Shown here one piece after another: positions 47,272 to 53,919 of a stretch of 64,000 bases of DNA. The stretch lies in assembly GCF_024741135.1 (NCBI RefSeq), contig NZ_JANSUY010000001.1, positions 310,001 through 374,000 on the forward strand, read 5' to 3'. Position 1 is the first letter of the stretch. Each line of letters opens with the position of its first letter. The notes below the pieces were generated by a model, which worked only from the letters and a program-made list of their open reading frames with translations, did no database searches and had not been told where the DNA came from. Made by a program: the position numbers and the translations under genes. Origin of the DNA: Aquiflexum gelatinilyticum. Lineage in GTDB: Bacteria > Bacteroidota > Bacteroidia > Cytophagales > Cyclobacteriaceae.

Positions 47272-49806
<2,535 letters not shown>

Positions 49807-50806: not shown

Positions 50807-51385
50807 TCAACGAAATTGCTTTGGTTTCAGATGTTGTTCTGCCAGGTTGACGATTTCTGTAATCCTATTTTGACGTGTTTCCGGTCGCTTGGCAAGTACA
50901 AGCCACTGTAGAATATTTCTTTTATCTGACCTGCTCAACCCCTCAAAGTAGGTTTTTGCATTTGGCTTTGTTTGAAATTCGGCCTCCAGATCGGGAGGGA
51001 TGATCAGGGCTTCGGCATCATCCAAAATTGTCCAAGAGCCATTTTGCTTTGCAATGGCAATCACATCGAAACCTGCCTTTGTCATCAGTCCTTGGGCCGT
51101 CAACCGCTCGATTTTTTCTTTGTTTATCTTCGACCACACGCTTTTAGGCTTTCTTCTGCTAAAGAACTGCATGTATTTTTGGTCATCAAGCGGTTTTGAT
51201 TTACTGTCTATCCATCCAAAACAAAGCGCCTCGTCCACCGCTTCATTGTAGAGAACCGAGGCAGTATTTGATTTCTTTTTATAGTAAATAAGCCAAATGG
51301 ATTGCTTGACATGGTGGTTCTGTTGAAGCCAATCACGCCATTCTTGCCGGGATTTTGGATAAAATGTTTCGGTCTCTTTTTCCAT
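50807..51385 (-). CDS. YdeI/OmpD-associated family protein
   Basis: About 192 residues starting at the ATG before EKETETFYPKSRQEWRDWL; another ATG lies seven codons upstream. Family features: WLIYYKKKSNTASVLYNEAVDEALCFGWID, then FFSRRKPKSVWSKINKEKIERL, and C-terminal basic LVLAKRPETRQNRI. Function in the family is poorly known (cationic peptide resistance has been linked to YdeI). Cytoplasmic, no signal peptide. Confidence 0.88.
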   Translation of the reverse strand: MEKETETFYPKSRQEWRDWLQQNHHVKQSIWLIYYKKKSNTASVLYNEAVDEALCFGWIDSKSKPLDDQKYMQFFSRRKPKSVWSKINKEKIERLTAQGLMTKAGFDVIAIAKQNGSWTILDDAEALIIPPDLEAEFQTKPNAKTYFEGLSRSDKRNILQWLVLAKRPETRQNRITEIVNLAEQHLKPKQFR

Positions 51386-51445
51386 CTCAATCGTCTGTGA
51401 AATCAAATCTAACTATAAGGAATGCCCACAGTAGTGTGGGAAAAT

Positions 51446-52402
51446 TCATCGGTCCAAGTTGTGTTCAGGGCAATCTAATCTTAATTCATTTTCAGCAAGT
51501 TGGGTTTTCAAAAGTTTGCAATAATGAATACCATTGTTTATTTGGTAATTAGAACATGTAAAACACATTCTTTGAATAGTAATAATGCCTGCTTTATTTA
51601 GTTCGTATATTAATTTTAGCAACCCATTAAGCATTATTGTTTTTTGTTCTTCAGTCAATAGTTCAATGGGTTTCTCTATCGAAGAAGCAAAAAAAGATGC
51701 TTTTTTAGCTATTTTTTCTCCATCATTTGTCAGTGAAAGAGAATAACTCCTTGTGTCAACAGGATCGGTTTCTTTGGTCAATAATTCTTTAGAAAGTAAA
51801 ACTTTAACACTATCACTAATAGTAGCTTTAGTCATATTGAACTCGGTCGCCAAATATCCCACCTTGCATTTTTCTGCCGAATGAAAATAAATAAAAATTA
51901 AAATTTGAATCTGTATCGGGCTTAATGAATTCTCTTTGCTTTCATTCCATAATAACACTCTAAAAGCCTCTGAGATTCTTTCCAAAGCCACAACAATTCG
52001 ACTTTCAGTTTTTTGATTTTGTTCGACTAAATTGAATGGTGAATAATTTATCCCCATATTTTTAGCTACATAAATCCAGGCTTTTCTTCCCGACTCAAAA
52101 GTTTCAAGAATCCTAACGTATTCGCTTACTTCATATTTATCTGTTTCAGCAAGTTCTCTGTCTGTAATTTCAAATATTTTTCCTTCAATATAATCAGCTT
52201 GATTTCTTGAGTTTATAGCAATGGGGTGATGCTCAACTTGACTTTTGGCTAGAACTGTTGAATCGGTGATCCGCAGATTTTCAATTTTATACCCTAATAA
52301 TTTATCCCGCTGTCCTTTTAAAATTCGACCATAGGTTTCAATCTGTACTTTTTCTAACTGCAAAGTACCATAAGAGAAGAGTAAATGTGTAGTCTCATTC
52401 AT
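51446..52402 (-). CDS. GGCT-like domain fused to MarR-type repressor with four-cysteine tail
   Basis: 318 residues in three parts. Residues 1-115 are an AIG2/gamma-glutamylcyclotransferase-like domain (LLFSYGTLQLEKVQIETYGR, with the YGTL loop). Residues 116-275 form a complete MarR-like winged helix (ALERISEAFRVLLWNESKEN, LSPIQIQILIFIYFH, EFNMTKATISDSVKVL, DPVDTRSYSLSLTNDG). The tail has Cys280, 283, 295 and 311 (CX2CX11CX15C), a plausible zinc, Fe-S or thiol switch. Met116 (52055-52057) is where a stand-alone MarR would begin, so the fusion joins two whole proteins. Overlaps the DUF2024 gene by 4 bp. Likely a redox- or glutathione-linked regulator of its own cluster; that role is inference. 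Confidence 0.82.
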   Translation of the reverse strand: MNETTHLLFSYGTLQLEKVQIETYGRILKGQRDKLLGYKIENLRITDSTVLAKSQVEHHPIAINSRNQADYIEGKIFEITDRELAETDKYEVSEYVRILETFESGRKAWIYVAKNMGINYSPFNLVEQNQKTESRIVVALERISEAFRVLLWNESKENSLSPIQIQILIFIYFHSAEKCKVGYLATEFNMTKATISDSVKVLLSKELLTKETDPVDTRSYSLSLTNDGEKIAKKASFFASSIEKPIELLTEEQKTIMLNGLLKLIYELNKAGIITIQRMCFTCSNYQINNGIHYCKLLKTQLAENELRLDCPEHNLDR

Positions 52403-52662
52403 TTGCAGTTTTCCATTTCATTGATAAAATAACCTTGGTTTTTTATTTCTACTTCCCATGCTGGTTGGAGCGTTTCTATATGACAAAACCTACATTCATT
52501 TGATGTAATAGGTTGCCCTTGCTGACCTTTGGTGATCAAATATTCTTTGCCATAACTATAGATTATTGCAGCGTCTTTTATTTCTTCGGGGGCAATAATG
52601 TCAAAGTGCATTATTCCACCATCTTTTTTTGTAACATAAGTGTCCCAAACTGCTACTTTCAT
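52399..52662 (-). CDS. DUF2024 family protein
   Basis: 87 residues beginning KVAVWDTYVTKKDGGIMHFD, the DUF2024 signature, with a C-x2-C-H motif in SNECRFCHIETLQP. Small, cytoplasmic, found mainly in Bacteroidota; no known function. The Cys pair suits the thiol theme of the cluster. Its stop overlaps the start of the GGCT-MarR gene by 4 bp, so the two are translationally coupled. Confidence 0.85.
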   Translation of the reverse strand: MKVAVWDTYVTKKDGGIMHFDIIAPEEIKDAAIIYSYGKEYLITKGQQGQPITSNECRFCHIETLQPAWEVEIKNQGYFINEMENCK

Positions 52663-52759
52663 TTTTTTAAAGTTTTGATTTTTGATCGGGTTTAAACAAG
52701 AAAATCAAGAAACAAATCAAGTACAAATAAAATCCTTATTGTTGATTTGTATAAATTAA

Positions 52760-52795
52760 AGCCTTGCAAAGGTAGGATCCCAACTTTGCAAGGCT
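52760..52795 (-). terminator. Terminator or attenuator behind the secreted CxxC protein gene
   Basis: Perfect 12-bp arms AGCCTTGCAAAG (52760-52771) and CTTTGCAAGGCT (52784-52795) with a 12-nt loop, followed on the minus strand by TTTAATTTAT. It sits between the secreted-protein gene and the DUF2024 gene, so readthrough would decide how much regulator is made. Confidence 0.75.
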
Positions 52796-52800
52796 ATTAA

Positions 52801-53538
52801 TTATTTTACTTTGTAAGGTAATGACAAATTTCCGCTGGCTATTGAATATACTTTATAAACGCCAAGCATAGGTTTATCACCACCACCGTGACCCCCATCT
52901 CCGCCTGTGGTTACCTGCATAAAAGCCGCAACTCCATCATAGGAGAAATCCTTTTTGTTGCTCATTCTGTAATCAGGAACAACCACCCTAATTGTGTTTC
53001 CATTTGTGATGACTTGAAATCCCGGTGAGTCCATATACATTGGCATCCCAGGATTAGTTGGAGGCAGTACCACACTTTTGTCCTTTGGGTCAAACTCCTT
53101 TACAGCCAATCCGCCTTCCACTCTTTTATCTTCAGTGAGAATTACCCAGTGTGGATGCCAAATTATACCGTCATTTGCAAAATTGCGGTCTGAGTTTTCA
53201 TCCCAAAGTGGTGTGTCGTCAAAATCCGGATGTGAAGTTAAGGCAAGAGCCAATATTCCTTCGGTGTTACCAAACCCAACATCAGTTGGCTTTAGGGAAG
53301 TGGGGAATACATATCCCAAAACAGGTGCTCCATTAAGTTGCCCGGCCGGTTTGGGAGTGGTATTGCCTGCTGTTCCCTTTACAGTAATCTCCCAAATTGT
53401 TGCACCAATTTCGGGTGAATGCTTAATCTCAACATTTTGGATTTGAAAATCATCATTGTTATAGTTTCTGCACTTTTCGCAAGCATAGCTTTTAAAAGCA
53501 AAAACTGAAAGTCCTAAAAGAAGAAGTATTTGTTTCAT
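52801..53538 (-). CDS. Secreted protein of unknown function with N-terminal CxxC
   Basis: 245 residues with a signal peptide (KQILLLLGLSVFAFKSYA) followed at once by CEKCRNYNN. The mature part is beta-rich, with aromatic and His residues (DDTPLWDEN, IIWHPHWVILTE) and a flexible GGDGGHGGGDKP loop near the end that could bind metal. No family recognised. Between the mini-thioredoxin gene (75 bp upstream) and the DUF2024/GGCT-MarR pair. Confidence 0.75.
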   Translation of the reverse strand: MKQILLLLGLSVFAFKSYACEKCRNYNNDDFQIQNVEIKHSPEIGATIWEITVKGTAGNTTPKPAGQLNGAPVLGYVFPTSLKPTDVGFGNTEGILALALTSHPDFDDTPLWDENSDRNFANDGIIWHPHWVILTEDKRVEGGLAVKEFDPKDKSVVLPPTNPGMPMYMDSPGFQVITNGNTIRVVVPDYRMSNKKDFSYDGVAAFMQVTTGGDGGHGGGDKPMLGVYKVYSIASGNLSLPYKVK

Positions 53539-53613
53539 ATTTTGAAATTTAATGGTTAACCAAAAGTCAGAAGCCTATAAATGATATGTAATCCGACTTA
53601 TTAAGGAAGTTTT

Positions 53614-53847
53614 TTACCCTTTTACATCAGCTATCGATGCTCCAAAATTGATGTGTAATACATTCCCGTTCGGTGTTAATAATGCGGGCACAGATTGTAC
53701 ACCTGCTTTTTCAGCTTCTAAAATCCGGCTTCTGTCTTTACCAATGTGAACAAGTTCTACATTGTCTGATCCAATTAAATTAACAATGTCGTGCTCTGCA
53801 CTTAGGCATACCGGACATCCTGCATGATAGAAAATAGATTTTTCCAT
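53614..53847 (-). CDS. Mini thioredoxin/glutaredoxin-like protein (CPVC)
   Basis: 77 residues. The active-site motif CPVC is at residues 11-14 (YHAGCPVCLSAEHDI), with a cis-Pro in QSVPALLTPNGNVLHINFGA. This is the minimal thioredoxin fold of glutaredoxin-like proteins, cytoplasmic, no signal. First gene of the minus-strand thiol cluster, directly behind the palindromic promoter at 53886-53919. Confidence 0.88.
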   Translation of the reverse strand: MEKSIFYHAGCPVCLSAEHDIVNLIGSDNVELVHIGKDRSRILEAEKAGVQSVPALLTPNGNVLHINFGASIADVKG

Positions 53848-53885
53848 TTTTTTTAAGATTAGTTGTTATTGGCATTATTGCCACA

Positions 53886-53919
53886 CAATTATAGTAAGGA
53901 ATCCTAACTATCCAAAAAA
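53886..53919 (-). promoter_or_regulatory. Promoter of the thiol cluster with palindromic operator in the spacer
   Basis: On the minus strand, TTTTTTG (53913-53919) as -33, a 19-bp spacer, then TATAATTG (53886-53893), one base off TAnnTTTG, as -7; the ATG is about 38 nt downstream. A 21-bp near-perfect palindrome ATAGTAAGGAATCCTAACTAT (53891-53911) fills the spacer and overlaps the -7 box, where a MarR dimer would block polymerase. Confidence 0.7.

Follow-up and report, generated by a model that had tools for sequence, protein, structure and literature searches.

We analysed a 64,000-nucleotide stretch of the draft genome of Aquiflexum gelatinilyticum (contig NZ_JANSUY010000001.1, positions 310,001 to 374,000; hereafter the window), in which four neighbouring genes encode a mini-thioredoxin (Trx), a predicted secreted protein with a CEKC motif, a DUF2024 protein, and a regulator in which a gamma-glutamylcyclotransferase-like (GGCT) domain precedes a MarR winged helix and a tail with four cysteines (Cys4). 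The original prediction had described these four open reading frames (ORFs), and all were confirmed on the minus strand at the coordinates listed below. The core of the system is the MarR-Cys4 regulator. Comparison across genomes leaves the predicted operon and operator well supported, and we hold as an evenly balanced proposition that the regulator is an autoregulated repressor whose Cys4 site would sense nitric oxide (NO) or a closely related species. The locus comprises:

53891..53911, minus: putative operator, palindrome ATAGTTAGGATTCCTTACTAT, with a 15-mer core at 53894-53908, 46 base pairs (bp) before the Trx start
53886..53893, minus: candidate -7 promoter element TATAATTG, immediately next to the operator; most loci have TATATTTG-like sequence here
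53614..53847, minus: mini-thioredoxin (Trx), 77 amino acids, CPVC motif
52801..53538, minus: CEKC protein, 245 amino acids, predicted secreted, of no known family; hydrophobic N-terminus followed by CEKC
52399..52662, minus: DUF2024 protein, 87 amino acids, CRFCH (CxxCH)
51446..52402, minus: fused ORF, 318 amino acids; GGACT at residues 8-115, MarR winged helix at 160-219, Cys4 tail at 280-311
52048..52057, minus: junction of the two fused genes; about 2 bp are absent where relatives have an ATGA overlap, and an ATG at 52057 lies in frame as a possible MarR start
51470..51565, minus: Cys4 tail of the fused ORF, Cys280/283/295/311
50807..51406, minus: YdeI/OmdA-type gene downstream of the fused ORF, possibly cotranscribed (OmdA in Pfam, 72.3 bits)

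In Pfam, the fused ORF matched GGACT (PF06094) at 35.9 bits (cut-off 22.8), so that the predicted GGCT domain held up in a profile search, together with MarR_2 at 37.9 bits (cut-off 27) and MarR at 25.3 (cut-off 24.6). The DUF2024 protein matched PF09630 at 119 bits (cut-off 27) and has a relative of known structure, 2hfq (E 1.5e-18). The mini-thioredoxin stayed under the Pfam cut-off (Thioredoxin_3, 15.6 bits against 24.8). For the CEKC protein, neither Pfam and NCBIfam nor the PDB sequences gave a match at E <= 1; its predicted model was poor (mean predicted local distance difference test score, pLDDT, 52.4), and Foldseek returned no match at E <= 0.001. The GGCT part had no PDB sequence match at E <= 0.01. 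It contains YGTL, and E91 is among the positions conserved in nine rows; these may correspond to the YGxL loop and the catalytic glutamate of gamma-glutamylcyclotransferases.

The AlphaFold2 model of the regulator has a MarR fold (mean pLDDT 80.6) that matches MarR structures, with a low-confidence, poorly defined Cys4 tail. All four tail cysteines are present in 52 of 52 aligned rows (38 loci, the window and 13 plasmid loci; ORFs outside 170-260 amino acids were excluded from this count). Named MarR equivalogs scored far under their NCBIfam cut-offs (BilQ 40.4 against 125, AdcR 28.8 against 175, OhrR 20.4 against 200). Plasmid homologues share 51% identity in Spirosoma, 45% in Hymenobacter and about 26-33% in Deinococcota, Cyanobacteria and Proteobacteria. 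Because what homologues have in common is the MarR domain and the Cys4 tail, the tail would be a likelier sensing site than GGCT.

Distribution of the operon and its operator

With the fused protein as query, we found 23 loci among genome contigs and a single match in its own genome (a draft of 57 contigs). Nine of 59 genomes in the relatives set matched, the genome itself included, some of them weakly or by GGCT alone; four congeners (G001-G004) had no match. We mapped 40 loci with a MarR-Cys4 gene, a number that includes the near-duplicates L014/L018, L011/L012, L067/L068 and L075/L083. Three further loci (L021, L022 and L024) carry GGCT only, and the MarR gene of L073 was lost in ORF calling. 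Across the mapped loci, ORFs were called for Trx in 31, DUF2024 in 24, CEKC in 20 and YggS in 11; Trx of L008 and L011 was visible by tblastn alone.

Trx and CEKC follow the regulator across the order, and the conserved co-occurrence on which the original prediction had made itself depend was thus observed. We counted a MarR-Cys4 match as strong at E < 1e-38, a threshold of our own; the next matches, at 9e-10 or weaker, were set aside. Strong matches occur in 19 of 231 genomes, the window's own included. CEKC was found in 12 of these 19 against 1 of 212 others (Fisher 1.8e-14) and Trx in 15 of 19 against 3 of 212 (Fisher 2.2e-17), in tests that ignore relatedness, several of the 19 being close kin. 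The genomes with either gene and no strong MarR-Cys4 are G162 for CEKC and G055, G060 and G076 for the mini-thioredoxin. The four genes are part of a compact stress operon that recurs in many Bacteroidota, apparently under the control of the Cys4-tailed repressor, and it probably helps cells to withstand nitric oxide or related oxidants.

In the tree, the window's group of 17 rows (99/99) includes Parapedobacter, Flavobacterium, Lutibacter, Cyclobacterium and G126, and the same-family genomes G015, G020, G021, G167 and G216 lie outside it; this separation suggests horizontal spread. Two metagenome-assembled genomes labelled Flavobacterium (L014) and Chitinophagaceae (L018) have identical MarR rows and the same neighbours, and one of the two contigs is probably misbinned.

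The cysteine theme that the original prediction saw in all four products stands for a conserved thiol-rich set around a Cys4 regulator, and is only partly a family trait because the CEKC cysteines are not conserved. In Trx, C11 and C14 of CPVC belong to the positions that 90% or more of 33 rows share, and 24 of 25 DUF2024 copies keep CxxCH. The CEKC cysteines are kept in just 12 and 11 of 27 rows, and the conserved core of that protein is HPDFDDxPLxDENxD...DGxxWHxHWV. DUF2024 ORFs of L004-L008, and more weakly of L013, begin with a signal-peptide-like extension, which the window copy does not have. DUF2024 might thus be an exported c-type haem protein, although a zinc knuckle is as likely and the window copy is without the extension.

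A palindrome, tAGTTAGGAnTCCTnACTA, lies ahead of the Trx gene in 31 of 31 loci. Each of these palindromes matches GTTAGGAnTCCTAAC at 12-14 of 14 positions, with TATATTTG-like sequence after it; we take TATAATTG in the window to be a putative promoter -7 element, from the Bacteroidota -7 consensus. The window holds just one site of 12/14 or better, the one before Trx. Such sites occur in 20 of 23, 20 of 20, 4 of 13 (plasmids) and 20 of 26 (phylum sample, described below) loci, against one in 442,032 bases of 34 control regions, base composition being unmatched between sets; three of the 23 are the GGCT-only loci, among which L021 has a site. Many loci have additional sites ahead of CEKC, DUF2024 or MarR. 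In the phylum sample, 17 of 26 loci have a site beside an annotated gene; in 16 of them a module or haem gene is preceded by the site, L171 being the exception because its site does not lie upstream of the gene.

Across the 22 MarR-positive genomes, perfect matches to GTTAGGAnTCCTnAC were found in eight, all at the MarR locus; matches with one mismatch are found in other places as well, about as often as those to a reversed control pattern. The core TAGGAnTCCTA precedes distant homologues in Deinococcota, Cyanobacteria and Proteobacteria, and this 11-mer is absent from the control bases. The 13 plasmid loci contain 11 sites of 9/10 or better in 130,257 bp, and nine have a site at most 120 bp before MarR (in Thermus, before cytochrome c'-beta).

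Directly after the stop of the fused ORF lies a hairpin, CCCACA-CTAC-TGTGGG (51426-51441, minus), which may terminate the transcript ahead of the YdeI-type gene. A YdeI-type ORF is also found 3' of MarR in L065. About 1.6 kb beyond the operon, on the opposite strand, is an ORF (47581-49806, plus) resembling a catalase-peroxidase, presumably KatG-like; a KatG seed had no match in the 26 test or 34 control regions of the phylum sample.

The GGCT-MarR fusion

The original prediction read the GGCT domain as the sensing part of the regulator. GGCT adjoins MarR in 8 of 40 mapped loci, and among these eight the fusion was seen in the window alone. L002, L005, L006 and L010 have distinct ORFs for GGCT and MarR, which overlap by ATGA in the last three. 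In none of the 25 mapped phylum-sample loci does GGCT lie beside MarR, nor is it near MarR in the 26th, L172. Control of the MarR domain by GGCT, on binding of a gamma-glutamyl or glutathione-type ligand, would account for both domains, each above its Pfam cut-off, sharing one ORF. Against this, the genes are separate in relatives, GGCT is missing from most loci and the fusion is private, and on these three grounds we rejected GGCT as the sensor domain; the ligand model as a whole seems to us extremely improbable. Nothing was found in support of glutathione sensing. GGCT looks like an accessory enzyme rather than a sensor.

The alignment suggests how the fusion arose. The junction is about 2 bp shorter in the window than in L002, L003, L005, L006 and L010, and the GGCT frame therefore continues into the second codon of MarR. 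Apparently, a 2-bp deletion at the ATGA overlap took out both the stop codon of GGCT and the start codon of MarR. Just upstream, a TTG-to-ATG difference creates the in-frame ATG at 52057, which could still serve as a MarR start. By these comparisons the fusion is either private and recent or an assembly error, and in any case looks like a quirk of one genome. A sequencing or assembly error, with separate GGCT and MarR genes in the real genome, would fit the small size of the change, the draft state of the assembly with its 57 contigs, and the separate genes of other loci. However, the stretch carries further substitutions, the TTG-to-ATG change among them, as if the region had truly diverged, and we think such an error unlikely.

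Other composite genes were also seen. In L156 (5569-6201), upstream of MarR-Cys4, a second, independent fusion joins DUF2024 (87.3 bits) to a globin-like domain (Bac_globin, 20.3 bits, just below the cut-off of 21). GGCT stretches also lie in longer ORFs apparently joined to an AAA-type ATPase (L021:5290-6345, L022:6001-7083 and L016:6603-7325). In L016, an AAA ATPase follows MarR (NF042959 IteA model, 178.8 bits, cut-off 510).

Haem-protein neighbours and the candidate signal

The first loci suggested NO-related neighbours: truncated globins (L009, L016), a protoglobin (L014) and a cytochrome P460 family protein (L090); RIC with hemerythrin (L004, L016) and NnrS (L096); and flavohaemoglobin and Rrf2 among L069, L073 and L086. 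We tested this on a fresh sample of the phylum. MarR-Cys4 was present at E <= 1e-20 in 28 of 395 genomes, and 26 loci were taken, three places already covered being omitted; 34 control regions came from sampled genomes (20), earlier MarR-positive genomes (13) and the window's genome (1). A haem protein stands beside MarR in 12 of the 26 loci (truncated globin 3, protoglobin 4, cytochrome P460/c'-beta 5), and a single control region of 34 has any counted haem, iron-repair or catalase gene, namely RIC. One locus, L153, is the L009 locus that supplied the globin seed; without it the counts are 11 of 25 against 1 of 34 (p = 1.4e-4). The haem gene lies upstream on the strand of MarR in 11 of the 12; the protoglobin of L172 is convergent with MarR. 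Operators sit 11-41 bp ahead of the haem gene in L159, L170, L172, L175 and L176. Across the 22 genomes of the order, three of seven strong protoglobin matches lie within 6 kb of MarR, where about 0.013 would be expected.

Protoglobins and truncated globins have gas-binding roles. P460-type proteins, that of Thermus included, carry a C-terminal CxxCH in six of six cases, and the Thermus neighbour of MarR-Cys4 is the solved cytochrome c'-beta 7ead. For the cytochrome c'-beta family, a role in NO binding has been proposed (PMC11928373).

Several results weigh against NO as the signal. Neither RIC (6 of 19 against 41 of 212 genomes, p 0.23) nor NirK (1 of 19 against 6 of 212, p 0.46) co-occurs with MarR-Cys4 above background; seeds for Hmp, Rrf2, NnrS, RIC and catalase match 0 of the 26 phylum-sample loci; five of these loci (L158, L161, L167, L169, L174) have no haem or module gene within 5 kb; and the window's own operon contains no haem protein. 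These haem proteins also bind other gases, and the thiol-redox genes that adjoin the regulator in several plasmid loci would suit a signal of a general thiol or peroxide type. Since the RIC and NirK co-occurrences were not significant, we rejected denitrification as a genome-level companion. Catalase, Hmp, Rrf2, NnrS, MOSC, Tpx and RIC were likewise rejected as general partners, being seen at single loci and in 0 of 26 phylum-sample loci. An MsrA seed matched one test and one control region.

The main rival keeps the same operon and operator and would make the Cys4 tail a zinc or thiol redox switch that answers disulfide, peroxide or electrophile stress, with the co-regulated thioredoxin re-reducing the repressor, by analogy with the RsrA/sigmaR-thioredoxin loop. 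In favour of such a switch, the mini-thioredoxin was called in 31 mapped loci; thioredoxin, redoxin, Tpx or TlpA adjoins homologues in L091, L092, L093, L095 and L096, and catalase lies directly 3' of MarR in G194 and in the Hymenobacter plasmid cluster. However, what recurs in the phylum sample is haem gas-binding proteins, not thiol peroxidases, and of the 10 catalase genes in 22 genomes one lies close to MarR. We see in this switch a serious possibility, if on balance a doubtful one. A sensor of zinc or copper governing a metal-stress operon would suit a four-cysteine tail, the His/Asp-rich CEKC core and the weak similarity to the zinc-responsive AdcR family noted above, but no metal efflux gene was recognised in the annotated plasmid neighbourhoods or ORF lists, which were read without profiles, and we consider this explanation very unlikely.

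We favour an NO-type signal. As we picture it, a MarR-Cys4 dimer would bind tAGTTAGGAnTCCTnACTA over the promoter and repress Trx-CEKC-DUF2024-GGCT-MarR. The four cysteines of the tail would hold a metal or Fe-S centre that reacts with NO or related reactive species, and the reacted repressor would leave the DNA so that the operon could be expressed. In the window, the products would be a small thioredoxin for thiol or nitrosothiol repair, in keeping with thioredoxin function, a secreted protective protein, DUF2024 and a gamma-glutamyl-type enzyme; in other lineages, a truncated globin, a protoglobin or a cytochrome P460/c'-beta could take part. The response would be self-limiting, because MarR is encoded in its own operon. 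What the sequences show of this picture is the gene order, the operator, the invariance of the four cysteines, the haem-protein association in relatives and the private fusion; the dimer and its repression, the NO-type signal, the cofactor and what Trx, CEKC, DUF2024 and GGCT do are inferences.

More broadly, and a shade less confidently than at even chances, we propose that MarR-Cys4 represents an undescribed family of NO-sensing repressors across Bacteroidota, Balneolota, Calditrichota, Deinococcota, Cyanobacteria and Proteobacteria, which would use one conserved operator (core TAGGAnTCCTA) to control interchangeable NO-binding haem proteins and new protective genes (DUF2024, CEKC and the mini-thioredoxin). 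If true, this would add a class of regulators, together with the DNA site they recognise, that answers nitric oxide or redox stress and extends far outside a single phylum; it would also offer the first testable roles for DUF2024 and the CEKC family.

Comparison with known systems

The original prediction knew of no described system with this gene set, and our literature search likewise yielded no description of the gene set or the operator; for DUF2024 a single paper came up. Long operator strings occurred in no paper searched; the 11-mer strings, searched as two terms together, gave only an unrelated match, a search that papers with a single string would escape.

The RsrA/sigmaR-thioredoxin loop also pairs a cysteine-metal regulator with a regulon that includes thioredoxin, but RsrA is an anti-sigma factor, unlike the proposed DNA-binding MarR-Cys4 repressor. 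MepR and further MarR repressors with solved structures have the MarR fold and winged helix in common with MarR-Cys4; among 60 of 85 PDB chains listed, none reaches beyond position 155 of a profile of 201 positions, leaving the Cys4 tail uncovered. NsrR, of the Rrf2 family, is described as a repressor of NO-detoxifying haem proteins (PMC12343034). It has an Rrf2 fold, whereas the window protein matches MarR and gave no Rrf2 match in Pfam at E <= 1.

The nearest functional parallel is ArnR of Corynebacterium, a MarR/ArsR-like sensor of NO with a [4Fe-4S] cluster, which represses hmp, the gene for flavohaemoglobin, and has been reported almost only from Actinobacteria (PMC12343034). Like MarR-Cys4, ArnR combines a MarR/ArsR-like winged helix with a C-terminal cysteine site. 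Compared by description, ArnR has three cysteines (179, 193 and 223) and a larger C-terminal domain, whereas the window protein has four (280/283/295/311), a CxxC plus two more in a tail of about 35 residues; by that feature MarR-Cys4 is therefore not an ArnR member.

Cytochrome c'-beta/P460 (PDB 7ead and relatives) adjoins the regulator in Thermus and, within the phylum sample, at 5 of 26 loci, although it is not part of the window's operon, and the association links the solved Thermus protein to a specific candidate regulator and operator. MarR-Cys4 itself would be a MarR-family stress repressor with a wide regulon.

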